DNA of 46,447 nucleotides, from positions 1 to 46,447 of the forward strand of contig JANXXX010000018.1 of the NCBI GenBank assembly GCA_025350405.1, read 5' to 3'. The first letter of the stretch is position 1. Each line of letters begins with the position of its first letter. This DNA is from Gallionella sp. Lineage in GTDB: Bacteria; Pseudomonadota; Gammaproteobacteria; Burkholderiales; Gallionellaceae. Made by a program: the position numbers and the translations under genes. Under the pieces are notes generated by a model. The model was not told where the DNA came from, made no database searches, and was given only the letters and a program-made list of their open reading frames with translations. Below are positions 15,442 through 36,642 of this stretch, piece by piece.

Positions 15442-15861
15442 TTACCGGTTCAGCTGTTCAAGAAATACACTGATGCCGGCGCGGGCGATCTGCGCATCCT
15501 CAGGAGATTTGACGCCGGACACACCCACGGCCCCCACGCATTCTCCATCAACCAATATTTGTTCCCCACCTTCGACCATCGTGAGTCCGCCTGGGACGGA
15601 CAGAAAAGCGTTGCGACCGCCAGCCACTACATCTTCGTAGACTTTTGATGCCCTGCGTCCCATCGCCGAGGTGTGCGCCTTGCCAGTGGCGATGTTCGGG
15701 CTGGTCAAGGGCGCACCATCCAGGCGCTGCAACCACATTAAATGGCCGCCATCGTCGACGATGGCAATAGTCACGGCCCAATTCTGGCGCAACGCCTCGC
15801 TTTCACAGCCTGCTGCAATGATCTTCACATCGGCCAGCGTCAAACATTTTTTAATTTTCAT
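15442..15861 (-). CDS. GlcG/HbpS-family protein
   Basis: A 139-residue protein of the GlcG/HbpS (DUF336) family, with the typical AIVDDGGHLMWLQRLDGAP and the glycine-rich PGGLTMVEGGEQILVDG followed by GAVGVSGVKSPEDAQIA. Family members are linked to glycolate (glc) and diol (pdu/dha) operons, and HbpS binds haem; the GlcG role is unknown. The frame is open upstream to 15900, but the ATG at 15861 gives the usual family length. It lies 61 bp after the IclR gene on the same strand and about 17 kb from the glcDEF genes here, which supports a shared theme of glycolate metabolism. Confidence 0.85.
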   Translation of the reverse strand: MKIKKCLTLADVKIIAAGCESEALRQNWAVTIAIVDDGGHLMWLQRLDGAPLTSPNIATGKAHTSAMGRRASKVYEDVVAGGRNAFLSVPGGLTMVEGGEQILVDGECVGAVGVSGVKSPEDAQIARAGISVFLEQLNR

Positions 15862-15922
15862 TGAGTCTCTACTTATGGTGAATTGATTCGAAATATTCAA
15901 ATCGGTATGGCAAATATCTTTG

Positions 15923-16705
15923 CTACGTTGCGTGAAAACCGAGCTGTTTGGAAATCTGCTTGCCGGTATCCATGACTTGAACTATCCATTCATCGCGGCG
16001 CCGTTCTATCGGCGCCGACACGGACAATCCGGCGACCACCTGGCCGCTGGCATCACGTATCAGCGTGCCTATGCATCCTACCCCGAGTTCCGCCTCTTCA
16101 TTATCCAGAGCATAGCCGTGTTTTGTTGCGGCGATACAGTCTTGCAGCAGGGCAGTTATCTGGGTGTGAGTGTGGACCGTATACGCGGGTAGCTTGCTGT
16201 GCTTGGCATAACTGCGGCACGCCGCTTCGCCTTGCTCGCCCAGCATCAGCTTGCCGACCGCAGTGACATGCAAGGGCGCGCGGCTGCCGATCACTTGTTC
16301 CACCCGTATCATGCGCTTGGCGAGTGTACGCTCGATGTAGACGACCTCATCGCCTTCGCGCACGGTCAGGTTGACTGTCTCGCCCAAGTGGTCGCGCAGT
16401 TTTTCCATCAGCGGCAACGCAATTTTTCTGATGTCCACGCTGGCGTGAACCCGGCTACCCAGCTGCATCAGCTTGACGCCCAATTGGTAGTTTCCCCTGC
16501 TGGTGCGCTCTACGAAACCTTGTTCTGCCAGCGACGAAAGGATGCGGAAGGCGGTGGACGGGTGTAATCCAGTTTCAGCCGAGAGTATCTTCAGACTCAC
16601 CGGCTCTTCGTGCGCCGCGATCACGTCCAGCAGCCCTGCCAGCCGTTCGATGACTTGTATGGAATTCGAGCCTTCCTGTAATTTGCGCTTGGGCATATTT
16701 CGCAT
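15923..16705 (-). CDS. IclR-family transcriptional regulator
   Basis: A 260-residue regulator with an N-terminal winged helix-turn-helix (VSLKILSAETGLHPSTAFRI) and a C-terminal IclR effector-binding domain (RAPLHVTAVGKLML, followed later by GVGCIGTLIRDASG). IclR proteins bind palindromes near their own promoter and respond to small acids such as glyoxylate, pyruvate or aromatic acids. It is divergent from the TPP-enzyme gene and shares a 90-bp intergenic region with an inverted repeat. Start is ATG 16705 or ATG 16696, with no clear Shine-Dalgarno at either. It probably controls the TPP enzyme and itself; a wider role over the glycolate genes is inference. Confidence 0.9.
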   Translation of the reverse strand: MRNMPKRKLQEGSNSIQVIERLAGLLDVIAAHEEPVSLKILSAETGLHPSTAFRILSSLAEQGFVERTSRGNYQLGVKLMQLGSRVHASVDIRKIALPLMEKLRDHLGETVNLTVREGDEVVYIERTLAKRMIRVEQVIGSRAPLHVTAVGKLMLGEQGEAACRSYAKHSKLPAYTVHTHTQITALLQDCIAATKHGYALDNEEAELGVGCIGTLIRDASGQVVAGLSVSAPIERRRDEWIVQVMDTGKQISKQLGFHAT

Positions 16706-16732
16706 TGTGAAAACGATTATGTATTGCGAAAT
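16697..16732. promoter_or_regulatory. Candidate IclR operator
   Basis: ATTTCGCA (16697-16704) and TGCGAAAT (16725-16732) are a perfect 8-bp inverted repeat with 20 bp between arms. It overlaps the iclR start codon region and lies upstream of the divergent TPP-enzyme gene, a typical place for autoregulation. The AT-rich TATATAAC just beyond could be a -10 region. Confidence 0.5.
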
Positions 16733-16795: not shown

Positions 16796-19003
16796 ATGAA
16801 GACTAACGTAGCGGCAACGCCGCAATTTTGTGCAGGCATTCAACATTTCGGTCTGGCTTGGGACGGTTTTGACCAGCATGCCCAATCGGCTGTCATCAAG
16901 GAAGGCAAGTCGGCGATCAGTGATCCGCGCGCACCGGATGCGGTGTATCAAACGCTGTTGATGGCCGATGCGCTGCGTTACTTGACGCTGCAAACCTGCG
17001 GTTCGAAGGGTTCCGGCCATCCGGGCGGTTTTGCCAGCAGCGCCGAGGCGTATGCCTCGCTGGTGATGCTGGGCCATACCAACATCGTGACCGAGGTGGG
17101 CCACCATGCACCCGGATTCTACAGCGCGATGTTCCTCGACACGTCGCTGGAAGAGATGGGCATCAAGACGGTCACCGACCTGATGGCGCGCTTCCGCGAG
17201 AAGCATGGTTTGCTCGGCCATTTGTCAGGCGCAATTCCCGGCCTGTTGGCCCCCGCCGGTCCGCTGGGCCAGGGGCAGCATTTCGCGATGGCGGGTGCGT
17301 TGCTGCATCCGGGCAAGTTGTTCCCGGTCACCATTGGTGACGGCGGCATGGGCGAGCCTTATGTGCTGAATTCGATGATGCACTTCAATACCGCGTATCC
17401 CAAGGTGACCAACTTCCTGCCGACTTTGATCTGGAATGGCTACAGCCAGGAGCATCACTCGATGGTGTCGCGCTTCACCAATCAGGAAATGATCGCTTAC
17501 TGGAAGGGTCACGGTTTCAAAGAAGTTGTGCTGGTCGACGCCAAGGAATTTGACGACACCAAGCAGACCAGCGCCTATGCGGACAGTTCTTATTTCTCGC
17601 ACAAACAGCGTCTGGTTTTTGCCGCAGCGGTGCTGGCGGGCGTGGACAAGGCGGCGAAGTCCGCCTTGGGCGGAACTCTGACCGCATTCATCATCAAGCA
17701 GATGAAGGGCACCGGCGTGCATACCGTGGGCGCGAAGTCGCACAACCTGTATCCGGCCGACAGCCTGGACAAGCCGCACATGATCGAAGGATTGCGGCGC
17801 CGTGCGCTGAATCCTGAAGCGTGGGCCATCGTGCGCAAGAATTTCGTGCGCGCCGGGGGCGGCCCGGCGGTGAAAACTGCGGTAACCGAGCATGTGCTTG
17901 ATCTGGCCCCGCTGGGCAAGATGCCGCTGCACGAATTTGCCAAGGGCGAGAAGGCCGTACCGGCCACTGCGATGGGCGCGCTGGCAGCGTATGTGGGCAC
18001 CAAAGACAAGCGTTTCGTCGTGACCAATGCGGACGGCAACGAAGCGTCGGCGATGAAGAACATCAACGACGCGTTGAAGATCCGCCATCCGACCGTTGAT
18101 CCGCTATACAACCAGGAACCGGAAGGGCAGGTGTATGAGCCGCTGAATGAAGACGCGTGTGCCGGTCTGGCATCAGCCCTTGCGCTGTTCGGTTCGCGCG
18201 CATTGTGGTTGTCCTACGAAAGCTTCGCAATCAACGGCTGGCCGATTGTACAAACGGTCGCGCAGGCGATGGCTGAGTTGCGCCGCAAGACGCCGTCGAT
18301 CGTCACGATGTTCACCGCTGGCGCGCTGGAGCAAGGGCGCAACGGCTGGACGCATCAGCGTCCCGAGATCGAGAACTACTTTGCGGCGCAGATGCGCAAC
18401 GGCAACACCTACCCGTTATTTCCCTGCGATGCGAATGTGATCCAGGCTTCCTACGAATATGCGACCAACAGTTTCAACAAGTGCATGGTGATCATCGCGT
18501 CCAAGAGTCCGCTGCCGGTTTACATGAGCATGGACGAAGCGAAACATGCGGTGGAAGAGGGTGCGGCAACGATCTATGAAAGCAAGGGTGGAAGCAAGGG
18601 CACCGTGGTTTTTGGCGTCACTGGCGACATGATCTTCTTGCCGGTGTTCGAGGCGAAGGACAAACTGGAAGCGGAAGGTTACAAGGTGCGTATCGTCGCC
18701 ATCGTGAACCCGCGCCGCTTGTATCGTCCAACAGACATATCGTGGGACACCGTGTCCGAACCGGATAACAAATTCATGGATGACGAGCATTTTAACGCGC
18801 TGTTCGACGGCGATGTGCTGCTCGCTGTGAGCGGTGGTCCAAGTGCCGTGCTGGAGCCCGCACTGCTGCGCACCCGTGCAACCAAGCGCGACACCTTTGC
18901 CTGGAAGCGCGGTGAAACGACCGCCAGCCCGGCCGAGATCATGGAGTTCAACGGACTGACTGCAGACGCGATGACCAAACGTGTCAAGGCGCTGAAAGGT
19001 TAA
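16796..19003 (+). CDS. TPP enzyme with mixed transketolase/phosphoketolase features
   Basis: A 735-residue thiamine-diphosphate enzyme. The N-terminal half looks like transketolase: GSGHPGG with H75, GHHAPG with H103-H104, GPLGQG at 155-160, and the TPP motif GDG at 181-183 with its partner N214. The C-terminal half looks like phosphoketolase: E452 in LNEDACAG as the cofactor-activating glutamate, YESFAING, NGWTHQRPE with H520, PCDANV, and SKSPLPVYMSMDEA. In the middle, KSHN (H316-N317) stands where phosphoketolases have a His-Gln pair. Length is between transketolase (about 665) and phosphoketolase (about 800). AGGAG precedes the ATG at 16796. It is divergent from an IclR gene and followed by a terminator and a sugar-acid kinase. 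A C2-transfer or C2-cleavage reaction is likely; the substrate is unknown. Confidence 0.75.
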   Translation: MKTNVAATPQFCAGIQHFGLAWDGFDQHAQSAVIKEGKSAISDPRAPDAVYQTLLMADALRYLTLQTCGSKGSGHPGGFASSAEAYASLVMLGHTNIVTEVGHHAPGFYSAMFLDTSLEEMGIKTVTDLMARFREKHGLLGHLSGAIPGLLAPAGPLGQGQHFAMAGALLHPGKLFPVTIGDGGMGEPYVLNSMMHFNTAYPKVTNFLPTLIWNGYSQEHHSMVSRFTNQEMIAYWKGHGFKEVVLVDAKEFDDTKQTSAYADSSYFSHKQRLVFAAAVLAGVDKAAKSALGGTLTAFIIKQMKGTGVHTVGAKSHNLYPADSLDKPHMIEGLRRRALNPEAWAIVRKNFVRAGGGPAVKTAVTEHVLDLAPLGKMPLHEFAKGEKAVPATAMGALAAYVGTKDKRFVVTNADGNEASAMKNINDALKIRHPTVDPLYNQEPEGQVYEPLNEDACAGLASALALFGSRALWLSYESFAINGWPIVQTVAQAMAELRRKTPSIVTMFTAGALEQGRNGWTHQRPEIENYFAAQMRNGNTYPLFPCDANVIQASYEYATNSFNKCMVIIASKSPLPVYMSMDEAKHAVEEGAATIYESKGGSKGTVVFGVTGDMIFLPVFEAKDKLEAEGYKVRIVAIVNPRRLYRPTDISWDTVSEPDNKFMDDEHFNALFDGDVLLAVSGGPSAVLEPALLRTRATKRDTFAWKRGETTASPAEIMEFNGLTADAMTKRVKALKG

Positions 19004-19042: not shown

Positions 19043-19068
19043 GAGTTGAATGCTGCGTGAAACAAAAT

Positions 19069-20403
19069 ATGTCAGAAACCAAAATCATCGTACTGGATGA
19101 CGATCCGACCGGCTCGCAAACGGTGCATGGCTGTTTGTTGCTGACGCGCTGGGATAAAGATACTTTGCGCGAGGCGCTCGTCGACACCTCGCCGCTGTTC
19201 TTCGTGTTGACCAACACGCGTGGCATGGCGGCCAAGCCTGCGGCGGACATTACACGTGAGGTGTGCAAAAATCTAAAGTTAGCGCTGGCCGAACTGAAGA
19301 AGAGCGGGCGCGACATCAATCCGATCCTGGTCAGCCGTTCCGACTCGACGCTGCGCGGCCACTACCCGGTGGAGACCGATGTGATCGCCGCGGAGCTCGG
19401 GCCGTTCGATGCGCACTTTCTGGTGCCGGCATTTTTTGAGGGTGGACGCATCACCCGCGACAGCGTGCACTACCTGCTGGTGAATGGTAAAGAAACGCCG
19501 GTGCATGAGACCGAGTTCGCGCGCGACTCGGTGTTTGGCTATCGCCATAGTTATCTGCCGGATTATGTCGAAGAGAAAACTAGTGGGCGTATCAAGGCGG
19601 CGCAAGTCGAGCGCTTCCTGTTGAGCGACGTGCGCGGCGACAGCATGCCGCGTCTGATGAAGCTGCAAGGCAATGCGTGCTGTGTTGTCGATGCTGAAAC
19701 ACAGGATGATCTGAATCATTTTGCTGAGCAGCTGCGCGTAGCGGCCAGCCAGGGCAAGCGCTTTTTATTCCGCAGTGCTGCCAGCCTGCTCACCGCGCTG
19801 GCACGCTTGCCGGCACAACCCGTGGCTGCGCAGGACATGGCGAAATATGTCCGCGGTGGACGCGCGGGTGCGGTCATCGTCGGTTCACACGTCAAAAAAA
19901 CCACCTTGCAGCTCGGACAGTTGCTCAAGATGCCCGGTGTCACACCTATCGAAGTGCATGTGGAACAATTGCCCGGGAGTCGTGATGCGCTGCTGGCGGA
20001 GATAATCCGCAAGTGTGAACAGAGTCATGTCGCCGGTAATACTCCTGTTGTTTTTACCAGCCGTCTGGAAAAGGCATTTGCGGATCAAGCTTCACGGTTG
20101 GCGTTTGGCGAGATGGTTTCCGCCTTCCTGATGGATGTGGTGCGTAGCCTGCCCAAGACCTTGGGTTTTCTGATCAGCAAAGGCGGCATCACTTCGAATG
20201 ATGTATTGAGTTCGGGTCTGGCGTTGCGCACCTCGCGCGTAGTCGGACAAATTCTGCCGGGATGTTCGGTGGTATGCTGCCCAGCCGATCATCCGCGTTA
20301 TCCGGATTTACCCGTGGTTATTTTCCCCGGCAATGTGGGTGATGATAAGGCTTTGGCAACGGCATATGGCAGGCTGGCGGGTGTTGAACTGGTTGCAGTG
20401 TAA
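19069..20403 (+). CDS. Four-carbon acid sugar kinase family protein (DUF1537)
   Basis: A 444-residue member of the DUF1537 kinase family. Visible signatures are LDDDPTGSQTVHG at residues 9-21, SRSDSTLRGHYPVE at 89-102 (substrate-binding N-terminal domain), and in the nucleotide-binding C-terminal domain KGGITSNDVLSSGL and VIFPGNVGDD. Known members phosphorylate erythronate, threonate or 3-oxo-isoapionate; the substrate of this one is unknown. The last motif has FPGNVG where many members have KSGNFG. An in-frame GTG at 19057 exists, but ATG 19069 fits the family start better. The gene starts 26 bases after a strong terminator, so it depends on read-through or its own promoter. The usual partner genes (dehydrogenase, isomerase, aldolase) are absent next to it. 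Confidence 0.82.
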   Translation: MSETKIIVLDDDPTGSQTVHGCLLLTRWDKDTLREALVDTSPLFFVLTNTRGMAAKPAADITREVCKNLKLALAELKKSGRDINPILVSRSDSTLRGHYPVETDVIAAELGPFDAHFLVPAFFEGGRITRDSVHYLLVNGKETPVHETEFARDSVFGYRHSYLPDYVEEKTSGRIKAAQVERFLLSDVRGDSMPRLMKLQGNACCVVDAETQDDLNHFAEQLRVAASQGKRFLFRSAASLLTALARLPAQPVAAQDMAKYVRGGRAGAVIVGSHVKKTTLQLGQLLKMPGVTPIEVHVEQLPGSRDALLAEIIRKCEQSHVAGNTPVVFTSRLEKAFADQASRLAFGEMVSAFLMDVVRSLPKTLGFLISKGGITSNDVLSSGLALRTSRVVGQILPGCSVVCCPADHPRYPDLPVVIFPGNVGDDKALATAYGRLAGVELVAV

Positions 20404-20594
20404 TTGCAGGTTTTGCCGGAGCGCGAATGAATGTTGTAAAGTACCAGTGTTTTTTGCCGGCAGCCGGTTTGCGATAAGCGTGGCGAACCTGACTGAATGA
20501 GCTGGATGATGTTGTAGTATCTGGATGTTTGTAGTCAGTAGGTGTTGTTAAATTCCTGAGTATTGTTTGATTGACCTTAACCAAGGAGAGAAGT

Positions 20595-21758
20595 ATGAAC
20601 ATTAAAATGAAATCTATTGTCACCGCCGTAGCGCTTGCGGCCTCTTTTTCAGCAATGGCTGCCGACCCGATCAGGATCGGTCTCTCAGGCCCCTACACCG
20701 GCGGCTCCAGCCCGATGGGCGTTTCGATGCGCGACGGCGTGAAGCTGGCCGCATCCGAGATCAATGCCAAGGGGGGTGTACTTGGCCGCCAGATCGAGCT
20801 GGTCGAACGTGACGACGAATCCAAGAACGAGCGCGGCGTGCAGGTAGCCCAAGAGCTGATCAACAAGGAGAAAGTCGTCGCAACCCTTGGCTACATCAAT
20901 ACCGGCGTGTCGCTGGCTTCGCAGCGTTTCTATCAGGAAGCCAAGATTCCGGTGCTGAACAACGTGGCGACCGGTTCCATCGTGACCAAGCAATTCCTGC
21001 CCCCGGAATTTGCCGACAACTATGTATTCCGCACTTCTGCCAACGACACCATCCAGTCTGCGATGATCGTCAGGGAAGCCATCGACAATCGCAAATTCAC
21101 CAAGGTGGCGATCCTGGCCGATTCCACCAACTATGGCCAGTTGGGACGCGAAGATCTGGAAAAAGCACTGGCAGCGAAAAACATCAAGACAGTCGCGGTG
21201 GAAAAGTTCAACATCAAGGATACCGACATGACCGCACAGTTGCTCAAGGCCAAGGAGGCCGGGACACAGGCGATCCTGACTTATGCGATCGGACCTGAAC
21301 TGGCGCAGATCGCCAACGGCATGGAGAAGCTGGGCTGGAAAGTGCCGATGATGGGAAGCTGGACATTGTCGATGGCCAACTTCATCGACAACGCCGGCAA
21401 GAACGGAGAAGGCGCACGCATGCCGCAGACCTTCATCCAGGAGCCGAACACACCGAAGCGCAAGGCCTTCATCGACGCTTACCTGAAAGCCTACAATCCA
21501 CCGAATGGCCGCATCCCTTCACCGGTTTCCGCCGCACAGGGCTATGACTCGATGTATCTCCTGGCCGCCGGGATCAAACAGGCCGGAAATACCGATGGCG
21601 TCAAGGTACGCGAAGCGCTGGAAAACCTGAAAGAGAAGATCGATGGCGTCGTGACGACTTACGATCATCCTTACACGCATGACAACCACGAAGCGATCAC
21701 CATGGAGATGGTCACGATGGGCGAAGTCAAGGATGGCCACGTGGTGCGCGCAAAATAA
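20595..21758 (+). CDS. Liv-type ABC transporter substrate-binding protein
   Basis: A 387-residue periplasmic binding protein (Peripla_BP_6, LivJ/HAAT type) with a Sec signal peptide MNIKMKSIVTAVALAASF ending around AMA/ADP. The N-lobe DPIRIGLSGPYTGGSSPMG is typical. Such proteins bind branched-chain amino acids, amides, urea or short carboxylates; the surrounding catabolic genes make a hydroxyacid or related compound possible. AAGGAG at 20583-20588 precedes the ATG at 20595, so the in-frame TTG at 20571 is not used. First gene of a four-gene transport operon. A strong hairpin follows the stop codon at 21811. Confidence 0.9.
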   Translation: MNIKMKSIVTAVALAASFSAMAADPIRIGLSGPYTGGSSPMGVSMRDGVKLAASEINAKGGVLGRQIELVERDDESKNERGVQVAQELINKEKVVATLGYINTGVSLASQRFYQEAKIPVLNNVATGSIVTKQFLPPEFADNYVFRTSANDTIQSAMIVREAIDNRKFTKVAILADSTNYGQLGREDLEKALAAKNIKTVAVEKFNIKDTDMTAQLLKAKEAGTQAILTYAIGPELAQIANGMEKLGWKVPMMGSWTLSMANFIDNAGKNGEGARMPQTFIQEPNTPKRKAFIDAYLKAYNPPNGRIPSPVSAAQGYDSMYLLAAGIKQAGNTDGVKVREALENLKEKIDGVVTTYDHPYTHDNHEAITMEMVTMGEVKDGHVVRAK

Positions 21759-21810
21759 TCCGTTAAGGATGATTGAAGTGTGAAGTCACCGGTAATTTTG
21801 TAATGCGCTT

Positions 21811-21836
21811 TTGGGCCGGGGGTGTCCCCGGCCCAA
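21811..21836 (+). promoter_or_regulatory. Perfect hairpin between binding-protein and permease genes
   Basis: TTGGGCCGGGG (21811-21821), a GTGT loop, and CCCCGGCCCAA (21826-21836) pair perfectly over 11 bp. There is no T-tract. Placed after the binding-protein gene, it most likely protects the upstream mRNA from 3' decay or partly stops transcription, so that more binding protein than permease is made. Confidence 0.7.
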
Positions 21837-21859
21837 ATAGCGAATGGATGGAGCTTTTC

Positions 21860-22732
21860 ATGGAAATATTTGCGCAACTCATCTTGAGTGGTATCGCGCT
21901 CGGCATGATCTACGGCCTGATCGCGTTCGGCTATCAACTGACTTTTGCCACATCAGGCACGCTGAATTTCGGTCAGGGCGAAGCGCTGATGTTGGGCGCG
22001 ATGGTCGGGCTGACGCTGGTCGGCCACATGAACTACTGGCTGATGATCCCGCTGGTGCTGGTGTTTGGCGCGCTGCAAGGTGTGCTGGTGGAGCGCTTGG
22101 GCGTGCTCCCCGCTTTAAAAACCAAATCCGAGTTCGGCTGGATCATGACCACCATATCCCTGGCCATCATCTTCAAGAATGTCGCCGAGAATGTCTGGGG
22201 ACACGACGACGTGACCTTCCCCTCGCCTTTGCCGACCGCACCGTTGCAGTTTTTCGGCTTGCGGGTGTTGCCGATGGAAATACTGGTCGTGGCAGGTGCG
22301 CTGGCGGTGATGCTGGCGGTAGAAATTTTCAATCGCAAATCCATTTATGGCAAGGCGGTGGTGGCAACCTCCAACGACCGCGACGCTGCCGGGCTGATGG
22401 GCATCAATACCGGCATGGTGATCACTTTCTCTTACGCGCTCAGCTCGATGACCGCCGCCTTTGCCGGGGTGCTGGTTGCGCCGCTGACGCTCACCGGCGC
22501 GACGATGGGTGCAGTGCTGGGACTGAAGGCATTCGCGGTCGCGATCATCGGCGGGCTCAACAGCGGCATGGGCGTGATCGTCGGCGGGTTGATCCTGGGC
22601 ATCGCCGAAACTACCACCGGCTATTACATTTCCACCGGCTACAAGGATGTGCCGGGCCTGTTGCTGTTGCTGCTGGTGCTGGCGATCAAACCTGCCGGGA
22701 TGTTCGGCAAATCCGTTATCAAGAAAGTTTGA
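21860..22732 (+). CDS. livH: Liv-type ABC transporter permease LivH
   Basis: A 290-residue inner-membrane permease starting MEIFAQLILSGIALGMIYGL, with about eight helices and the family motifs TLNFGQGEALMLGA and LKAFAVAIIGGLNSGMG. It forms the transmembrane channel with the LivM half of the next protein. GGAG at 21850-21853 is six bases before ATG 21860, which I prefer to ATG 21848 or to an upstream GTG that would place the hairpin inside the gene. The stop codon lies one base before the next ATG, indicating tight coupling. Confidence 0.88.
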   Translation: MEIFAQLILSGIALGMIYGLIAFGYQLTFATSGTLNFGQGEALMLGAMVGLTLVGHMNYWLMIPLVLVFGALQGVLVERLGVLPALKTKSEFGWIMTTISLAIIFKNVAENVWGHDDVTFPSPLPTAPLQFFGLRVLPMEILVVAGALAVMLAVEIFNRKSIYGKAVVATSNDRDAAGLMGINTGMVITFSYALSSMTAAFAGVLVAPLTLTGATMGAVLGLKAFAVAIIGGLNSGMGVIVGGLILGIAETTTGYYISTGYKDVPGLLLLLLVLAIKPAGMFGKSVIKKV

Positions 22733-22733
22733 G

Positions 22734-24674
22734 ATGAGTGCCGCAAAAATAATTTCCGCCATTCTGGCGATTGTGTTGGCTGCGCTGCTGCCGACGATCT
22801 GGCCGAATCCCTACTATATCCATCTGATGGTGGTGATCGGTATCTATGCGATCCTGCTGCTCGGCCTCGACATCGTGGTGGGCTATGTGGGTGAAGTTTC
22901 GCTCGGCCATGCGGCGCTGTTCGGCATCGGCGCTTACACGGTGGGTGTGCTCAATTGGCAGTTCGGCGCACATTTTCTGCTGACGATTCCGGCCAGCATC
23001 GCAGTCACCGCGTTGTTCGGTGCGATCCTGGCGTTACCCGCGTTGCGCGTGAACGGCCCTTACCTGGCAATGGTGACGCTGGCGTTCGGCACCATCATCC
23101 AGATCCTGATCAACGAGATGACCTTCGTCACCAATGGCCCGCTTGGGCTGAAGATACGCAAGCCGGTATTTTTTGACTACCATGTGACCGGCACAGACTA
23201 TTATTACATCGTGCTGGTAGCGCTGGTGGCAACGTTGTTCGTGGTGCAACGCATCCTGAAGTCCCATCTGGGACGCGCGTTCGAGGCGCTGCATGATAGC
23301 CCGATCGCGTCGGATTGCATGGGCGTGAGCGTGTATGGTTATAAGGTTTATGCGTTCGTGCTCAGCGCCGCGATCGCCGGGCTGGCCGGTGGCCTGTTCA
23401 CCTATTCCGAAGAATACATCTCGCCCAACACCTATAACTTCGAGTTGACCATCCTGTTCCTGCTGGCGGTCATCATGGGCGGGCGCAAGACACGTAGCGG
23501 CTCGGTGCTGGGCGCGATCATCATCGTGATGCTGCCCAACGTGCTGTCCGACATCGAACTGTTCCGCAAGATCGCCACCGGCATCGCCGTGGTTACAGTC
23601 GCTTATTCGGTTTACGCGCTGGCCACCCGGCAGCGCACGCTGAAACAAGTGGCGTTGCCGGTGTTGGCGACCATCGCGCTGGCGGTTTCCGGTTACATGA
23701 TGGACAACATCACCGACCATCGCCTGACGATCTTCGGCGCGATGATATTGTTCGTGGTGTATTACCTGCCCAACGGCCTGATGGGCTTCCTGCGCAGCAT
23801 CGTGCAAAAATATCGTCCGCAGTGGATACATCGCCATGAGGTGATCCTGGAGCATGGCGATAAGCATCATGTGTGGTCGGTGCCGGATCATCCAGTCACC
23901 GCCAGGGGGCATCTGCTCGAAGCGCGCAACATCACGATGCAGTTCGGCGGGTTGAAGGCGCTCAACGAAGTCAACCTGGACATCGCCAAAGGTTCGGTGC
24001 ATGGCCTGATCGGCCCGAACGGCTCCGGCAAGAGCACGATGATGAACGTGCTCACCGGCATCTACAAACCGGCCGCAGGCGAAATCGAGTTCAACCGCAA
24101 GCACATCACCGGTGCAACACCCTCATCCATCGCAGGTGAAGGCATCGCGCGCACGTTTCAGAACGTGCAGTTGTTTGGCGAAATGACCGCGATCGAGAAC
24201 GTGCTGGTCGGATTGCACCACACCTTCAAGCATAGCCTGATCGACGTGGTGTTCCACACGCCGCGCTGCAAGAAGGAAAAGAACGCGGCCTATCTGCGCG
24301 CGGCCAGCTTGTTGCAGTTCGTCGGCCTGGCCGACCTCGCCAACGAGGAAGCGCGCAACCTGCCTTACGGCAAGCAGCGCCTGCTGGAAATCGCCCGCGC
24401 GCTGGCGCTGAATCCCAGTCTGTTGCTGCTCGACGAACCGGCTGCCGGACTGACTGCGCCGGACATCAAAGAGCTGATGGCGATGATCAACAAGGTGCGC
24501 GGCCACGGCATCACCGTGATCCTGATTGAACACCACATGGATGTGGTGATGAGCATCTGCGACAAGGTGACGGTGCTGGACTTCGGCCAGAAGATTGCGG
24601 AAGGAACACCGGCTCAAGTGCAATCAGATGAGAAGGTAATTGAAGCGTATCTTGGCGGCAGCGCCGCTGCTTGA
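22734..24674 (+). CDS. Fused Liv-type permease and ATP-binding protein (LivM-LivG)
   Basis: A single 646-residue protein combining two usual subunits. Residues 1 to about 340 are a LivM permease with the motifs VGYVGEVSLGHAALFGIGAY and GLAGGLFTYSEEYISP. After a linker, residues about 395-646 are a LivG ATPase with Walker A GPNGSGKS (427-434), a Q-loop in ARTFQNVQLF, the signature LPYGKQRLLEIARAL, Walker B LLLLDEPAAGL and the H-loop EHHMD. The frame stays open throughout with no sign of a stop between halves. It starts one base after livH. With LivH, LivF and the binding protein it would form a complete importer. Confidence 0.9.
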   Translation: MSAAKIISAILAIVLAALLPTIWPNPYYIHLMVVIGIYAILLLGLDIVVGYVGEVSLGHAALFGIGAYTVGVLNWQFGAHFLLTIPASIAVTALFGAILALPALRVNGPYLAMVTLAFGTIIQILINEMTFVTNGPLGLKIRKPVFFDYHVTGTDYYYIVLVALVATLFVVQRILKSHLGRAFEALHDSPIASDCMGVSVYGYKVYAFVLSAAIAGLAGGLFTYSEEYISPNTYNFELTILFLLAVIMGGRKTRSGSVLGAIIIVMLPNVLSDIELFRKIATGIAVVTVAYSVYALATRQRTLKQVALPVLATIALAVSGYMMDNITDHRLTIFGAMILFVVYYLPNGLMGFLRSIVQKYRPQWIHRHEVILEHGDKHHVWSVPDHPVTARGHLLEARNITMQFGGLKALNEVNLDIAKGSVHGLIGPNGSGKSTMMNVLTGIYKPAAGEIEFNRKHITGATPSSIAGEGIARTFQNVQLFGEMTAIENVLVGLHHTFKHSLIDVVFHTPRCKKEKNAAYLRAASLLQFVGLADLANEEARNLPYGKQRLLEIARALALNPSLLLLDEPAAGLTAPDIKELMAMINKVRGHGITVILIEHHMDVVMSICDKVTVLDFGQKIAEGTPAQVQSDEKVIEAYLGGSAAA

Positions 24675-24686
24675 GGAGATTTCATC

Positions 24687-25409
24687 ATGTTGCAAATTCA
24701 AAATCTACACGCAGGTTATGGCAAGGTCGAAGTGCTGCACGGCATCTCGGTCGAGGTGCCGCAGGGCAAAGTGGTCACGCTGATCGGCTCCAACGGGGCG
24801 GGCAAGACCACGACGATGCGCTCGGTGTCGGGCATGATCAGGCCGATGAGCGGCAACATCACGCTGAATGGAAAAAATATCACCGGTCTGGCATCGAACA
24901 AGATCACCCGTGCGGGACTGGCGCATTCGCCGGAGGGGCGGCGCGTGTTCTCCACGCTGTCGGTGACCGACAATTTGTTGCTGGGCGCCTTCCCGCGCCT
25001 GACTTTCGGGCGCGAGCGCGGCGATGTGCAGGGTGACCTGAAGCGCGTATTTGATTTGTTCCCCCGCCTCAAGGAACGTGAAGCGCAACTGGCGGGCACG
25101 CTATCCGGCGGCGAGCAGCAGATGCTGGCGATGGGACGTGCGCTGATGCTCAACCCCGACGTGCTGCTGCTGGATGAACCGTCGATGGGTTTGGCGCCGC
25201 TGCTGGTGAAAGAAGTATTTCGCATCATCCGCGAGCTGAAGGCGCGCGGTATCACGATGCTGCTGGTCGAGCAGTTTGCCGCCGCCGCGCTGGATGTCGC
25301 CGACTACGGTTACGTGCTGGAAAACGGCCGTATCTCGGTGCATGGCCCGGCCGAGCAATTGAAGAATGATCCGGCGGTGAAGGCAGCCTATCTCGGTGCT
25401 GCTCATTAA
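24687..25409 (+). CDS. livF: Liv-type ABC transporter ATP-binding protein LivF
   Basis: A 240-residue ATPase of LivF type: Walker A GSNGAGKT, signature LSGGEQQMLAMGRALM, Walker B VLLLDEPSMGLAP, H-loop VEQFA. LivF lacks the insertion seen in LivG and pairs with it to power the importer. It begins 12 bases after the LivM-LivG gene, with GAGGAG just upstream. It is the last gene of the operon; an inverted-repeat element follows 57 bp downstream. Confidence 0.92.
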   Translation: MLQIQNLHAGYGKVEVLHGISVEVPQGKVVTLIGSNGAGKTTTMRSVSGMIRPMSGNITLNGKNITGLASNKITRAGLAHSPEGRRVFSTLSVTDNLLLGAFPRLTFGRERGDVQGDLKRVFDLFPRLKEREAQLAGTLSGGEQQMLAMGRALMLNPDVLLLDEPSMGLAPLLVKEVFRIIRELKARGITMLLVEQFAAAALDVADYGYVLENGRISVHGPAEQLKNDPAVKAAYLGAAH

Positions 25410-29068: not shown

Positions 29069-29126
29069 TTGAATTGTGATTTTGGATGAACTTATTACAT
29101 CAGCATGAATGAATAGGAGAACGGAT

Positions 29127-30014
29127 ATGGCAATCAATATTGGATTCATCGGCCCCGGCATCATGGGCCGTCCCATGGCGCTCAATCTGATGAAGGGCGG
29201 CTACAAGCTGTGGGCCTATGCGCGCCGTCCCGAAACATTGCATCCGCTGGTCGAAGCGGGTGCCACCGCTTGTGCAACGGCCGCTGAAGTTGCCAAGCAT
29301 GCCGATGTGATCTTCACGATGGTATCCGATACGCCGGATGTGGAAAGCGTGATATTTGGCGAGCAGGGCATTGCCAAAAATTTGCGCAGCGGCAGCGTGA
29401 TCGTCGACATGAGCACCATCTCGCCGACTGCGACGAAAGTATTTGCGGAACGTCTGGCGAAGCAGGGCATCGACATGCTGGACGCACCCGTATCAGGCGG
29501 CGAGACCGGTGCGATCAACGCCACGCTGTCCATCATGGTCGGTGGAAAAACCCAAGTGTTCGAGCGCGTCAAACCGCTGTTCGAGTGCATGGGCAAGAAC
29601 ATCGTCCACATCGGCGACAGCGGTGCGGGACAGGTGGCCAAGGCGTGCAACCAGATCGTTGTGGCGGTGACCATCGAGGCCGTAGCTGAAGCGCTCACTT
29701 TCGCGCGCAAGAACGGAGCCGACCCGTCCAAGGTGCGCGAGGCGCTGATGGGCGGGTTCGCCGGCAGCAAGATCATGGAAGTGCACGGCAAGCGTATGCT
29801 GGACAACGATTTCAAACCCGGCTTCAAGGTCGGCCTGCACCAGAAGGACATGCGCATCGTGATGGAAACCGCGCACCAGTTGGGCGTGGCGCTGCCCGCC
29901 GCAGCCTTGGTCACCCAGCATCTCAACGCGCTGATGGGCACCGGCGACGCCGATCTGGATTCCGCTGCCATCGTCAAGGTCATAGCGCGCATGTCCGGGA
30001 TGGGCGGAAAATAA
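29127..30014 (+). CDS. garR: Tartronate semialdehyde reductase (GarR/GlxR-type)
   Basis: A 295-residue beta-hydroxyacid dehydrogenase. It has the NAD(P)-binding start INIGFIGPGIMGRPMALNL, the substrate motif DAPVSGGETGA, catalytic lysine in GAGQVAKACNQ, and the C-terminal GFKVGLHQKDM. The string MGGFAGSKIMEVHGKRM is close to E. coli GarR/GlxR, which reduce tartronate semialdehyde to D-glycerate; 3-hydroxyisobutyrate dehydrogenase is the nearest alternative, made plausible by the upstream mmsA. AGGAG is six bases before ATG 29127. It precedes a hydroxypyruvate reductase-like gene by 10 bases, so the two share an operon. No gcl is in the window to make its substrate. Confidence 0.82.
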   Translation: MAINIGFIGPGIMGRPMALNLMKGGYKLWAYARRPETLHPLVEAGATACATAAEVAKHADVIFTMVSDTPDVESVIFGEQGIAKNLRSGSVIVDMSTISPTATKVFAERLAKQGIDMLDAPVSGGETGAINATLSIMVGGKTQVFERVKPLFECMGKNIVHIGDSGAGQVAKACNQIVVAVTIEAVAEALTFARKNGADPSKVREALMGGFAGSKIMEVHGKRMLDNDFKPGFKVGLHQKDMRIVMETAHQLGVALPAAALVTQHLNALMGTGDADLDSAAIVKVIARMSGMGGK

Positions 30015-30024
30015 GTTTTATATC

Positions 30025-30972
30025 ATGGAAAAAATTGTCTTTCTCGATAGCGCCAGCATCATTGCCGACATTCGTCGCCCGGCCTTTGCCCACCAGTGGG
30101 AAGAGTATACGGCTACAACCACCGATCAGGTGGTAGAACGGCTCAAGGATACGACCATCGCGATCACCAACAAGGTGCAACTAAAACGGGAAACGCTGGA
30201 GCAATTGCCCATGTTGAAGATGGTCGCAGTCGCGGCTACCGGTACGGACAACGTGGACATCGAATGTTGCCGAGAACGCGGCATCGTCGTGTCTAATATC
30301 CGCAACTACTCGGTGCACACCGTGCCCGAGCACGTCTTCATGCTGATGCTGGCGTTGCGCCGCAACCTGCTGGCATTCCGCGCCGACGTGCTCAACGGTG
30401 CGTGGCAAAAATCCACGCAGTTCTGTTTGTTCACCCACCCGGTACGCGACTTATACGGCAGCACGCTGGGCATCATCGGGCATGGTGCGATCGGCAAAGC
30501 GGTGGCGCAGATCGCGCTGGCGTTCGGCATGAAAGTGCTGCTCGCCGAGCACAAGGGTGTTGCCGAGGTGCGTCAGGGTTACACTGCGTTCGACACAGTG
30601 CTGCGTGAAAGCGACGTGATAACCTTGCATCTTCCTTTGAACGAGCAGACCCGTCACCTTATCAGCACCGCGGAATTCGCGCGCATGAAACCCGATGCGC
30701 TGCTGATCAATACCGCACGCGGCGGTCTGGTGGACGAAGCTGCATTGCTGGAAGCCCTGCGTTCCGGGCGCATAGCCGGTGCCGGGTTCGACGTGCTGGG
30801 CAAGGAGCCGCCGACTCAAGGACATCCGCTGCTGGACATTAATCTGCCCAACTTCATCCTGACCCCGCACATCGCCTGGTCGGGGAGAGCTGCGATGCAG
30901 ACCTTGGCCGATCAGCTTATCGACAACATCGAAGCCTTTGTCGCAGGCACAGCGCAGAATCGCGTTGCATGA
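30025..30972 (+). CDS. D-2-hydroxyacid dehydrogenase, hydroxypyruvate reductase type
   Basis: A 315-residue NAD(P)-dependent D-isomer 2-hydroxyacid dehydrogenase. The Rossmann motif is GIIGHGAIG, and the catalytic triad is visible as Arg in NTARGGLVDE, Glu in LGKEPP and His in LTPHIAWS. It is most like glycerate dehydrogenase/hydroxypyruvate reductase (HprA), which reduces hydroxypyruvate to D-glycerate or glyoxylate to glycolate. Situated between a tartronate semialdehyde reductase and malate synthase, it fits glyoxylate/glycerate metabolism. The next gene starts 25 bases downstream. Confidence 0.85.
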   Translation: MEKIVFLDSASIIADIRRPAFAHQWEEYTATTTDQVVERLKDTTIAITNKVQLKRETLEQLPMLKMVAVAATGTDNVDIECCRERGIVVSNIRNYSVHTVPEHVFMLMLALRRNLLAFRADVLNGAWQKSTQFCLFTHPVRDLYGSTLGIIGHGAIGKAVAQIALAFGMKVLLAEHKGVAEVRQGYTAFDTVLRESDVITLHLPLNEQTRHLISTAEFARMKPDALLINTARGGLVDEAALLEALRSGRIAGAGFDVLGKEPPTQGHPLLDINLPNFILTPHIAWSGRAAMQTLADQLIDNIEAFVAGTAQNRVA

Positions 30973-30997
30973 TGCGTTTATTAAAGAGGACACGATC

Positions 30998-32587
<1,590 letters not shown>

Positions 32588-32626: not shown

Positions 32627-34078
32627 ATGAAGCATGATCTGATAAAACAGATGCAGACAATTCTCCCCTCGGACGCCGTGCTGTTCGAGCAGGAAGACCT
32701 GAAGCCCTTCGAGTGCGACGGCCTGTCGGCTTACCGTCAGGTACCGATGATGGTCGTGCTGCCGGAAACCGAAGCGCAGGTGCGCGACATTTTGCTGCTG
32801 TGCCGCCGCGAAAATGTGGCAGTGGTGGCGCGCGGCGCGGGCACGGGCTTGTCGGGCGGGGCGTTGCCGCTCTCTGACGGCGTGCTGCTCAGCCTGTCGA
32901 AGTTCAAGCGCATTATCTCGCTCGACCCGTTCGCGCGTATCGCGCGCGTGCAGCCCGGCGTGCGCAATCTGGCGATCTCCGAAGCGGCGGCGCAACATGG
33001 TCTGTATTACGCACCCGACCCGTCCAGCCAGATCGCGTGTTCCATCGGCGGCAATGTCGCGGAGAATGCCGGTGGCGTGCATTGCCTGAAATACGGCCTC
33101 ACCGTACACAACGTGCTCAAGGTGCGCGCGTACACGATGGAAGGAGAGCTGCTGGAGATCGGCGCCGAGTCGCTCGATACGCCCGGCTATGATCTGCTCG
33201 CACTATTCACCGGCAGCGAGGGCATGCTCGGTGTGATCACCGAGGTGACGGTCAAGCTGCTGCCCAAGCCGGAACTTGCGCAAGTAGTGATGGCCGCGTT
33301 CGCCACCGTGGCAGAGGCGGGCAATGCGGTGGGCGAGATCATCGCGGCGGGTATCATCCCGGCAGGACTGGAGATGATGGACAAACTCTCGATCAAGGCG
33401 GCGGAAGATTTTGTGCATGCCGGTTACCCGCTGGATGCCGAAGCGATATTGTTGTGCGAGTCGGATGGCACGCCGGAGGAGGTCGCCGATGAGATCGCCA
33501 GGATGCAGGCGATTCTTGCACGCTGCGGCGCAACCTCGTTGCGCACCTCGGCGAATGAGGCGGATAGACTCAGGTTGTGGGCCGGGCGCAAGGCTGCGTT
33601 CCCCGCAGTGGGGCGGCTGTCACCCGATTACTACTGCATGGACGGCACCATCCCGCGCCGCGAATTGAGTCATGTGCTGAAGCGCATCGACGAATTGTCA
33701 AAAGAATATGGCCTGCGTGTCGCCAATGTATTTCATGCCGGTGACGGCAACCTTCACCCGTTGATTTTGTACGACGCCAACCAGCCCGGTGAATTTCATC
33801 GCGCCGAAGAACTCGGCGGAAAGATTTTGGAGCTGTGTGTCGAAGTGGGTGGCACCATCACCGGCGAGCACGGCGTCGGCATCGAGAAGATCAACCAGAT
33901 GTGCGCGCAGTTCAAAGAGGCAGAGTTGCAGCGTTTCCGCGAGGTGAAGCAGGCATTCGACCCGTCCGGTCTGCTCAATCCCGGCAAGGTGATTCCTACC
34001 TTGCATCGCTGCGCAGAACACGGCCGCATGCATGTTCATCGCGGGCAGGTGCCGTTCCCCGATATTCCTCGTTTGTAA
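32627..34078 (+). CDS. glcD: Glycolate oxidase subunit GlcD (FAD-linked)
   Basis: A 483-residue FAD-linked oxidase. The PCMH-type FAD domain shows VVARGAGTGLSGGALP and GGNVAENAGGVHCLKYGLT; the C-terminal cap contains NVFHAGDGNLHPLILYD and GTITGEHGVG. GlcD is the catalytic flavoprotein of the membrane-associated GlcDEF complex that oxidises glycolate (also D-lactate) to glyoxylate and passes electrons to quinone. Follows malate synthase by 40 bases and precedes glcE by 20, so the unit directly couples glyoxylate formation to its use. Confidence 0.92.
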   Translation: MKHDLIKQMQTILPSDAVLFEQEDLKPFECDGLSAYRQVPMMVVLPETEAQVRDILLLCRRENVAVVARGAGTGLSGGALPLSDGVLLSLSKFKRIISLDPFARIARVQPGVRNLAISEAAAQHGLYYAPDPSSQIACSIGGNVAENAGGVHCLKYGLTVHNVLKVRAYTMEGELLEIGAESLDTPGYDLLALFTGSEGMLGVITEVTVKLLPKPELAQVVMAAFATVAEAGNAVGEIIAAGIIPAGLEMMDKLSIKAAEDFVHAGYPLDAEAILLCESDGTPEEVADEIARMQAILARCGATSLRTSANEADRLRLWAGRKAAFPAVGRLSPDYYCMDGTIPRRELSHVLKRIDELSKEYGLRVANVFHAGDGNLHPLILYDANQPGEFHRAEELGGKILELCVEVGGTITGEHGVGIEKINQMCAQFKEAELQRFREVKQAFDPSGLLNPGKVIPTLHRCAEHGRMHVHRGQVPFPDIPRL

Positions 34079-34097: not shown

Positions 34098-35183
34098 ATG
34101 CAGGACATCATCGAACAACTCAGCAACACCGTGCGTGAAGCAGGACGCGAACGCCGCCCGCTGCGCATCCAAGGATCAGGCAGTAAATCGTTCTACGGCC
34201 GCGCAGTGCAGGGGACTACACTGGACGTGACCCCGTATCGCGGAATTGTTTCTTATGAGCCTACCGAGCTGGTGCTCACCGCGCGCGCCGGTACGCCGCT
34301 GACCGAGATCGAGGCGGCGTTGGCGGTCAATCGACAGATGTTGCCGTTCGAGCCGCCGCATTTCGGTGCGGGTGCGACGCTGGGCGGCTGCATCGCCGCC
34401 GGATTGTCCGGTCCGCGCCGCGCCTATGCGGGTGCAGCGCGCGACTACGTGCTGGGCGTGCGCATGATAGACGGCAAGGGCGATGATCTGCGTTTCGGCG
34501 GACAGGTGATGAAGAATGTCGCCGGGTACGACGTGTCGCGTTTGATGGCGGGTTCGCTCGGCACCTTGGGTGTGTTGCTGGAAGTGTCGCTGAAAATCTT
34601 GCCGCTGCCCGCCGAAGAGCTGACTTTGCGTTTCGACATGGCAGAGCGCGAGGCATTGGAAACGATGAATCGCTGGGCGGCGCAGCCATTGTCGCTGTCT
34701 GCGACTTGCTATAACGACGGCGTGCTGACGGTGCGCTTGTCCGGCGCTGTTGCTGCAATTAAGTCGGTGCGGCAGAAACTCGGCGGTGAGGTGGTGCAAG
34801 ATGCAGCTAGTTTCTGGCACAGCGTGCGCGAACAGCAGCATGAATTTTTTCAATCGGCGAAAACGCTGTGGCGTTTGTCGCTGCCTTCGGCCGCAGCAAC
34901 GTTCAATGTGCTTGAGAGCAATGTGGCTATCAATGTGTCGGCACGGCAACTGATCGAGTGGGGTGGCGCGTTGCGCTGGCTGGCGAGCGATGCATCGCCG
35001 GCAACCATCCGCGAGGCTGCTGCTGCGCTCGGCGGATACGCGACGCTGTTTCGCAGTACTACACCCATAGCCGAACCGTTTCATCCGCTGACGCCACCGC
35101 TGCTGATAGTGCACCAGCGCTTGAAGAAAGCATTTGATCCGCACGGCATCTTCAATCCCGGTCGCATGTATCAGGAACTTTAA
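34098..35183 (+). CDS. glcE: Glycolate oxidase subunit GlcE (FAD-binding)
   Basis: A 361-residue protein of the GlcE family, shorter than GlcD and lacking its full C-terminal domain. It starts MQDIIEQLSNTVREA, has RIQGSGSKSFYGR, the FAD loop GAGATLGGCIAAGLSGPRR, and GGQVMKNVAGYDVSRLMAGS. It is required with GlcD and GlcF for glycolate oxidase activity. The spacer from glcD is AT-rich with only a weak ribosome-binding site. Downstream, a 189-bp repeat element separates it from glcF, where such genes usually almost touch. Confidence 0.92.
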   Translation: MQDIIEQLSNTVREAGRERRPLRIQGSGSKSFYGRAVQGTTLDVTPYRGIVSYEPTELVLTARAGTPLTEIEAALAVNRQMLPFEPPHFGAGATLGGCIAAGLSGPRRAYAGAARDYVLGVRMIDGKGDDLRFGGQVMKNVAGYDVSRLMAGSLGTLGVLLEVSLKILPLPAEELTLRFDMAEREALETMNRWAAQPLSLSATCYNDGVLTVRLSGAVAAIKSVRQKLGGEVVQDAASFWHSVREQQHEFFQSAKTLWRLSLPSAAATFNVLESNVAINVSARQLIEWGGALRWLASDASPATIREAAAALGGYATLFRSTTPIAEPFHPLTPPLLIVHQRLKKAFDPHGIFNPGRMYQEL

Positions 35184-35418: not shown

Positions 35419-36642
35419 ATGCAAACTAATCTTACCGACGAATTCAAACACAGCGCTAACGGTCAGGAGGCGGAGGCCATCCTGCGCGCCTGTGTGCATT
35501 GCGGATTTTGCACCGCCACTTGTCCCACCTACCAATTGCTGGGCAACGAGCTGGACAGTCCGCGCGGGCGCATCTATTTAATCAAGGAAATGCTCGAAGG
35601 CGCAGAGGTCACCGATATAACCATGCTGCATCTGGATCGCTGCCTGACCTGCCGCTCCTGCGAAACCACGTGCCCATCGGGCGTGCAATACGGACGTTTG
35701 GTGGACATCGGTCGCGCGATTGCCGAAGAGAAAACCGGGCGCGGTTTGTGGCAGTCTGTGCAGCGCTGGCTGTTGCGCGCGGTGCTGCCGCGCACTGCGA
35801 TATTTAATTTATTGCTTGCGCTGGGCCGCATGTTGCGTCCGCTGTTGCCCGGCACACTGGCCAAGAGCGTGCCCATCACACAGCCTGCAAAACCTTGGCC
35901 GACTACACGACATGCGCGCAGCATGCTGGTACTGCAAGGCTGCGTGCAACCCGGCCTTGCGCCCAACACCAATGCCGCAGCCGCGCGCGTGCTGGACAGG
36001 CTGGGCATTACTTTATCGAGTGCAGAAAAAGCCGGATGTTGCGGCGCGGTCAGCTATCATTTGAATGCACATGAAGACGGGCTGGAGTACATGCGCCGCA
36101 ATATCGACGCATGGTGGCCGCAAGTGGAACAAGGCGCAGAGGCGGTGGTGATGACTGCGAGCGGCTGCGGTGTGATGGTGAAAGAATATGTCCATCTGCT
36201 GCGTAACGATACGGCTTATGCAAGCAAGGCGGCAAAGATTTCCAGCATCACCCGAGACTTGAGCGAGATACTCGCCGCAGAAAAAAATGGACTGCTGCGC
36301 TTGCTTAAACCTGAACAACGCGGCAAGGCGGCATTTCATTCCCCCTGCACCCTGCAGCATGGGCAGAAGATCGTCGGCGTGATCGAAGAGTTGCTGAGCA
36401 AGGCAGGATACGAGCTGACACAGGTAGCGGACAAACATTTGTGCTGCGGTTCGGCGGGAACCTATTCGATCCTGCAGAAAGAATTATCGCAGCAGTTGCT
36501 GCATAACAAATTGGGCGCGCTGCAAAGCGGCAGCCCGGTGCAGATCGCTACCGCCAACATAGGCTGCCAGGCGCACCTGCAAAGCGGCACGGACATTCCG
36601 GTGCGGCACTGGATCGAGTTGATAGAGGAGGCGTTGGCCTAG
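35419..36642 (+). CDS. glcF: Glycolate oxidase iron-sulfur subunit GlcF
   Basis: A 407-residue protein with two N-terminal [4Fe-4S] motifs, CVHCGFCTATCP near residues 31-42 and CLTCRSCETTCP near 76-87, followed by two CCG (cysteine-rich) domains including KAGCCGAVSYHL and KHLCCGSAGTYS. It carries electrons from GlcD/GlcE to the membrane quinone pool. No clear Shine-Dalgarno precedes the ATG at 35419, and the bases just upstream belong to the repeat element's edge. The gene is flanked on both sides by inverted copies of the same element, unlike a normal glcDEF operon. Confidence 0.93.
   Translation: MQTNLTDEFKHSANGQEAEAILRACVHCGFCTATCPTYQLLGNELDSPRGRIYLIKEMLEGAEVTDITMLHLDRCLTCRSCETTCPSGVQYGRLVDIGRAIAEEKTGRGLWQSVQRWLLRAVLPRTAIFNLLLALGRMLRPLLPGTLAKSVPITQPAKPWPTTRHARSMLVLQGCVQPGLAPNTNAAAARVLDRLGITLSSAEKAGCCGAVSYHLNAHEDGLEYMRRNIDAWWPQVEQGAEAVVMTASGCGVMVKEYVHLLRNDTAYASKAAKISSITRDLSEILAAEKNGLLRLLKPEQRGKAAFHSPCTLQHGQKIVGVIEELLSKAGYELTQVADKHLCCGSAGTYSILQKELSQQLLHNKLGALQSGSPVQIATANIGCQAHLQSGTDIPVRHWIELIEEALA

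Follow-up and report, generated by a model that had tools for sequence, protein, structure and literature searches.

We identified a ThDP enzyme, encoded in a stretch of 46,447 nucleotides of the genome of Gallionella sp. (the window), that constitutes a distinct family of its own. The gene (16796..19003, + strand) is a full-length open reading frame of 735 aa with an ATG start and no internal stops. The enzyme very probably functions in the glycolate/glyoxylate metabolism of Calvin-cycle autotrophs, and our preferred reading, to which we assign a probability of about 0.55, is that it is a glyoxylate-accepting ketol transferase at the head of an operon with which Calvin-cycle bacteria would salvage phosphoglycolate and glycolate. 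The broader proposition, which we hold at even odds, is that of a new phosphoglycolate salvage pathway of chemolithoautotrophs, in which a third transketolase-fold class of enzyme and a DUF1537 kinase would return DHAP straight to the Calvin cycle without passing through glycine, serine, tartronate semialdehyde, or malate. The separate family, the retained ThDP residues, the partnership with the kinase, the linkage to glycolate oxidase, and the association with RuBisCO were computed in this study.

Family status and active site

In a maximum-likelihood tree, the enzyme family, the phosphoketolases, and the transketolases formed separate clades, each with support of 100/99, and in the whole-length tree, comprising 10 family sequences and 5 XFPs, the family joined phosphoketolase at 87/81; it is a deep family, sister to phosphoketolase in the tree. 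The enzyme was placed in its own clade and not inside the phosphoketolases or transketolases, and this placement, together with fixed changes in the pocket and the locus comparison described below, supports the original prediction that the enzyme represents a separate subfamily, has a changed acceptor site, and is tied to the glycolate genes. Protein searches found the enzyme in 28 of 300 genomes of the same order and 33 of 369 of the same class, and a profile search found it in 3 of 299 genomes of the phylum, the source genome being included in each count. All matches from the order and class searches (E limits of 1e-40 and 1e-30) were at least 59% identical to the enzyme, so that the family does not grade into ordinary phosphoketolases at these limits; the source genome also encodes, on another contig, a separate phosphoketolase-type protein of 801 aa. 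No plasmid-borne relatives were found at 1e-20. A short phosphoketolase-like protein of a Nocardia farcinica plasmid (L188:5926-8055), encoded among radical SAM and methyltransferase genes and perhaps part of a natural-product cluster, was considered as an intermediate and rejected, as it falls with the phosphoketolases on a long branch.

Three Pfam domains scored above their gathering scores in the enzyme, namely, XFP (2.8e-12; 47.2 versus 22 bits), XFP_N (1.9e-9; 37.3 versus 23.7 bits), and XFP_C (1.5e-5; 25 versus 23.4 bits), which shows kinship at the level of the superfamily. Given these domains and the matches to phosphoketolase structures (1.3e-25 by phmmer and 5.2e-36 by profile), the homology to phosphoketolase is not due to chance. 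No curated NCBIfam model for phosphoketolase (best, 107 versus 962 bits) or transketolase (best, 39 versus 575 bits) was above its cutoff, and the glyoxylate carboligase model TIGR01504 was absent from the NCBIfam families matched. An AlphaFold model built from 18 family members had a mean pLDDT of 77 and a pTM of 0.80, with several active-site loops below 50; a Foldseek search with the whole model returned phosphoketolase 7c8i first (TMq, 0.71; 19% identity), followed by transketolase 8r3s (0.63).

The protein had originally been described as joining a transketolase-like front to a phosphoketolase-like back. The difference in score between the halves is real, with residues 37 to 250 matching a split transketolase at best at 35 bits and phosphoketolase at 23.6 bits and the C-terminal half matching phosphoketolase at 68.6 bits and transketolase at 28 bits, but a join of two enzymes is supported neither by the fold nor by trees of the separate halves. 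In these half trees, from which the Nocardia protein was left out, the C half of the family grouped with phosphoketolase at 96/96 and the N half at only 88/70, although neither half allowed a grouping with transketolase to be rejected (p-AU, 0.31 for the N half and 0.087 for the C half). Since both halves group with phosphoketolase, the apparent transketolase front more probably stems from motifs inherited from a common ancestor than from a fusion.

The motifs that the original prediction had listed were all located in the translation at the residues given, namely, H75 in SGHPGG, GPLGQG at 155 to 160, GDG at 181 to 183, the pair H316-N317, H520 in NGWTHQ, PCDANV, and PLPVYMSMDEA. Residues were compared in an alignment of 98 distinct family members (108 rows less 10 duplicates, the window protein among them, with sequences of 700 aa or less left out), 5 phosphoketolases, 1 phosphoketolase-like protein, 4 transketolases, and DXS. 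Invariant in 98/98 were H75, H103, H142, G181-D182-G183, K304, H316, E452, Y474, Q513, N516, H520, and K570; the fold, the GDG motif, the activating glutamate E452, and the cofactor histidines H75, H103, and H520 place the enzyme in the transketolase/phosphoketolase ThDP superfamily. Residues H104, N317, A417, and R515 were specific to the family. Asparagine follows H316 in all 98 members, as had been noticed in the single sequence, versus glutamine in the five phosphoketolases and glycine in the four transketolases.

When set against the phosphoketolase active-site residues listed in the consulted part of PMC10547157, which include His320, Gln321, Ser440, and His548, the family carries three replacements, each in 98/98: N317 for Gln321, A417 for Ser440 (with S418 adjoining), and R515 for His548. 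The phosphoketolase set of His320-Gln321 plus His548 is therefore not present in the family, in which H316 is kept but Asn317 and Arg515 are fixed, and the arginine or lysine that phosphoketolases carry two columns past Ser440 is replaced by Ala in 73, Gly in 24, and Ser in 1 of the 98. The transketolase pocket is likewise altered: the column of Arg358 contains no arginine in the enzyme (A390 or N411, in two alignments), that of His461 corresponds to A508, and that of Arg520 corresponds to K570, these three residues being the ones that bind the substrate phosphate in E. coli transketolase. Glyoxylate as a substrate would require a binding site for its carboxylate, which the fixed Arg515, replacing His548 near the ThDP loop, could provide; this we only infer, because confidence in the model is low in that region.

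Gene neighborhood and distribution among genomes

Upstream of the enzyme gene and divergent from it lies a gene for an IclR-type regulator (15923..16714, - strand), whose best NCBIfam model is BhcR at 170 bits against a cutoff of 350, so that it is not a member of that family; an HbpS-like protein is encoded next to it (15442..15900, - strand). Downstream, a DUF1537 acid-sugar kinase with a GTG start (19057..20403, + strand), proposed to be a 3-oxotetronate kinase, is assigned to its family by its SBD_N (4.6e-58) and NBD_C (2.6e-36) domains and by its fold (model pLDDT, 86). The model had eight PDB matches under an E value of 0.001, of which six are titled DUF1537 and two are Salmonella chains titled putative tRNA synthase, which we take to be members of the DUF1537 family. 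Its identity to E. coli YgbK, which carries the annotation of a putative 3-oxo-tetronate kinase, is only 26%, and the D-threonate kinase model matches it at 63 bits, far below the cutoff of 450; homology thus does not fix the substrate of the kinase.

Farther along the + strand are genes for a branched-chain-type ABC transporter (binding protein, permeases, and ATPases; 20571..25409), the substrate of which is perhaps a carboxylate; a dehydrogenase of the tartronate semialdehyde reductase type (29109..30014; 381 bits versus a cutoff of 340.75); a 2-hydroxyacid dehydrogenase, possibly a hydroxypyruvate/glyoxylate reductase (30025..30972); and malate synthase A (30938..32587; 803 versus 594.5 bits), a second possible consumer of glyoxylate in this genome. 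With malate synthase inside the cluster itself, two glyoxylate routes may coexist in this genome. The glycolate oxidase genes follow, beginning 13.6 kb past the enzyme with a GlcD-like subunit (32627..34078; 854.5 bits versus a cutoff of 897, and 557.6 versus 567.9 for TIGR00387) and continuing with GlcE (34098..35183; 536 versus 284 bits) and GlcF (35419..36642; 672 versus 333 bits). The tartronate semialdehyde reductase is above its cutoff though the genome has no match to glyoxylate carboligase at an E value of 1e-150. Between the transporter and the reductase, the window encodes a tautomerase of 133 aa with two tautomerase-like stretches in one chain (26955-27356, + strand) and, within the glycolate cluster, a methylmalonate-semialdehyde dehydrogenase (27407-28909, + strand; 733.6 bits versus a cutoff of 448.5), a relative of which also lies beside GlcF in two other loci (L118 and L123).

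In an initial comparison of 41 loci, of which the window is one, the enzyme was contained in one picked open reading frame in 36, and an order recurred in which an oppositely oriented gene is followed by the enzyme, the DUF1537 kinase, and three more genes, which correspond to GlcD, GlcE, and GlcF in the window. A scan of named genomes yielded 80 loci, the top-ranking ones among at least 569 relatives, to which all counts of named loci refer. Wherever 500 bases or more of downstream sequence were available (77 loci), the enzyme was followed by the kinase, and an IclR gene was present in 66 of the 68 loci with at least 1 kb upstream. Of the 47 loci whose sequence reached 5.3 kb or more downstream and 1.5 kb or more upstream, 29 had GlcD in the flank and 18 did not; in 8 of these 18, an ABC transporter of the window type follows the kinase, and others have a TRAP transporter. 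Relatives of the ABC binding protein occurred in 10 of the 80 loci, as did the HbpS-like protein, and TRAP DctP-type genes occurred in 9 loci (cluster n12). Most of these loci come from MAGs without a genus name; the genera represented include Gallionella, Sideroxydans, Mariprofundus, Thiobacillus, Sulfuriferula, Nitrotoga, Acidithiobacillus, and Halothiobacillus, which we take to be iron, sulfur, or nitrite oxidizers. In Acidithiobacillus ferrianus (L178) and a Halothiobacillus MAG (L181), the cluster includes GlcD, GlcE, and GlcF.

Several features of individual loci were also recorded. In Candidatus Nitrotoga sp. M5 (L167:8257-11357), two DUF1537 kinase genes stand in a row after the enzyme, and their products have identities of 73% and 72% with the kinase of the window. 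Genes of the LutABC lactate oxidation type, encoding two LUD-domain proteins and a cysteine-rich subunit, lie at 9781-12568 (- strand) in the window, and 9 to 11 of the 80 named loci have such a cluster close to the enzyme; because some of these loci have no GlcDEF nearby, the Lut-type genes may encode a substitute dehydrogenase for glycolate or lactate. A divergent class II aldolase (L127:9627-10475, also in L130, L131, L134, L180, and L069) adjoins the kinase in 6 of 120 loci, a set that holds some genomes twice, with at least nine enzyme sequences in both of its sources. It has no curated name over cutoff (TIGR00167, 210 versus 215.6 bits) and could be a 3-oxotetronate 4-phosphate decarboxylase, since decarboxylation of that compound would release the DHAP enediolate that such aldolases handle.

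The association of the enzyme with the kinase extends to whole genomes. The kinase family PF07005 was present in 33 of 33 carriers of the enzyme versus 1 of 47 RuBisCO-positive noncarriers (Fisher's exact test, 1e-21, which like all genome counts here makes no correction for relatedness), and one carrier (G654) has both genes even though about 750 kb separates them. The 47 controls were chosen by eye, in listing order, from 155 RuBisCO-positive, enzyme-negative genomes, blind to the results for glyoxylate carboligase (Gcl), kinase, and GlcE; most were at least 95% complete with strong RuBisCO matches, and at least one fitting genome (G400) was passed over. The RuBisCO family PF00016, counts of which include RuBisCO-like proteins on both sides, was found in 32 of 33 carriers versus 155 of 336 noncarriers in the class sample; for the order sample, the corresponding figures were 26 of 27 and 20 of 53. 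The single carriers lacking it were 86% and 92% complete, respectively, two carriers (G615 and G266) had weak or partial matches, and the Gallionella genome has two copies. GlcE was detected in 32 of 33 carriers and in 32 of the 47 controls, from which it follows that other glycolate routes exist in RuBisCO genomes without the enzyme. The absence of Gcl from the carriers (0/33 versus 2/47 controls; P = 0.51) was rejected as evidence for the role of the enzyme, the controls lacking Gcl nearly as often.

Proposed salvage pathway and alternative explanations

RuBisCO oxygenation gives rise to 2-phosphoglycolate, which is converted to glycolate. As annotated, GlcDEF would oxidize glycolate to glyoxylate. 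The ThDP enzyme is then proposed to move a C2 ketol unit onto glyoxylate from a ketose phosphate (xylulose 5-phosphate, for example), with glyceraldehyde 3-phosphate and 3-oxotetronate as the products. The DUF1537 kinase, judged from its family, would phosphorylate 3-oxotetronate to 3-oxotetronate 4-phosphate, and this product may yield DHAP and CO2 either spontaneously or through a class II aldolase. The last step assumes spontaneous loss from the beta-keto acid or the activity of a promiscuous Calvin-cycle aldolase; it is drawn without a general gene of its own because OtnC, which was rejected as the decarboxylase, was above cutoff in 0 of 33 carriers and the aldolase adjoins the kinase in so few loci. 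In sum, a pentose phosphate, glyoxylate, and ATP would be converted to two triose phosphates and CO2, and the IclR-type regulator probably senses glyoxylate.

The nature of the partner kinase is the reason for proposing glyoxylate as the acceptor and 3-oxotetronate as the product. Addition of a C2 ketol unit to glyoxylate would yield 2,4-dihydroxy-3-oxobutanoate, i.e., 3-oxotetronate, a known DUF1537 substrate, so that a single scheme would explain the enzyme, the kinase, the glycolate oxidase, the regulator with BhcR as its best model, and the association with RuBisCO. The substrates suggested at the outset, hydroxypyruvate, glycolaldehyde, or a ketose acid, came close; the kinase points instead to glyoxylate as the acceptor, with a ketose acid as the product. 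We know of no transketolase that uses glyoxylate physiologically. The conversion of 3-oxo-threonate to its 4-phosphate and then to DHAP by OtnK and OtnC is a known route, according to the consulted part of PMC12540250.

The position of the family as sister to phosphoketolase (87/81 for the whole length and 96/96 for the C half), its retention of H75, H103, H142, K304, H316, E452, Y474, Q513, N516, H520, and K570, and the malate synthase inside the window would also suit a functional phosphoketolase that converts ketose phosphate and Pi to acetyl phosphate and is coregulated with glycolate oxidation, for example to provide acetyl-CoA for malate synthase. We consider this unlikely, because the enzyme is far under the cutoffs of the phosphoketolase models that it matches; the columns of Gln321, Ser440, the next Arg/Lys, and His548 hold N, A, A/G/S, and R in 98/98; the genome has its separate 801-aa phosphoketolase-type protein; and a phosphoketolase would leave the kinase found in 33/33 carriers without a role. 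The cluster is moreover present in Acidithiobacillus (L178) and Halothiobacillus (L181), and Table 1 in the consulted part of PMC7486775 lists malate synthase in 0% of the RuBisCO genomes of the Acidithiobacillales (9 genomes), Halothiobacillales (6 genomes), and Nitrosococcales (14 genomes), with Halothiobacillus given as the example for the Nitrosococcales, apparently by a swap that leaves the value at 0% either way.

Transporter genes bear on a different proposal, the catabolism of an external four-carbon or other hydroxy acid, in which the enzyme would be a cleaving transketolase that sets glyoxylate free by passing the ketol unit to a sugar phosphate. In keeping with it, 10 of the 80 named loci have the ABC binding protein and 9 have TRAP DctP-type genes, but only a minority of loci have such transporters, which belong to two unrelated kinds, whereas RuBisCO and the kinase are almost always present, and either kind could equally import glycolate; we therefore regard this proposal as quite unlikely. 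The lack of Gcl in all 33 carriers and the tartronate semialdehyde reductase in the window, which is above cutoff in 21 of 60 carriers, might be taken to mean that the enzyme substitutes for Gcl, converting two glyoxylates to tartronate semialdehyde, with glycerate formed by the reductase and the DUF1537 protein acting as a glycerate kinase. This substitution was rejected as very improbable, since the reductase that it requires is not general among carriers: 39 of the 60 have none above cutoff, and 16 of the 60 have nothing better than an E value of 1e-20. To our knowledge, transketolase-fold enzymes do not decarboxylate glyoxylate, and the characterized DUF1537 kinases act on four-carbon acids; the threonate route described in the consulted part of PMC12540250 supplies an example. 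Salvage through a glyoxylate-accepting ketol transferase remains the reading that we prefer.

Comparison with known systems

The disposal of 2-phosphoglycolate in Calvin-cycle chemolithoautotrophs has been little studied, and the literature matches listed show neither this cluster nor a role for a DUF1537 kinase in the salvage of glycolate. The gene sets of Acidithiobacillus ferrianus (L178) and the Halothiobacillus MAG (L181) provide a concrete two-enzyme salvage hypothesis; if it is true, the pathway would be a new natural salvage route, the reaction would be a new class for the transketolase fold, and the enzymes could be used for trial in carbon-fixation engineering.

With phosphoketolase (XFP), the enzyme shares the fold (TMq, 0.71), the residues for ThDP activation, an SHQ-type loop with Asn and Gln, the DAN motif, and an equivalent of Lys605. 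It differs in its identity of about 19%, its own clade (100/99), its length (735 aa versus 788 to 801 aa in the five phosphoketolases compared), and its pocket, in which Gln321 is replaced by Asn, the Ser440 column holds Ala, the next Arg/Lys is lost, and His548 is replaced by Arg. The motifs SGHPG, GPLGQG, GDG, and THQ and, as proposed, the ketol-transfer chemistry are held in common with transketolases (TktA and CbbT), whereas the Arg358 column has no Arg, Ala stands at His461, Asn stands for Asp469, and the tree puts the enzyme with phosphoketolase.

In Cupriavidus necator, the glycerate pathway and the malate cycle were found in a 2020 study of that one species, and the present cluster would share with them the disposal of glyoxylate stemming from RuBisCO oxygenation (PMC7486775, consulted in part); the C. 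necator routes use Gcl or malate synthase, whereas Gcl was found in 0 of 33 carriers of the enzyme. The L-threonate system of OtnK and OtnC (E. coli YgbK and YgbL) has in common with the cluster a DUF1537 kinase and the proposed sequence from 3-oxotetronate through its 4-phosphate to DHAP. The two differ in that the kinases are 26% identical and OtnC is above cutoff in none of the 33 carriers, and in the cluster, 3-oxotetronate is proposed to be formed from glyoxylate and not from threonate.
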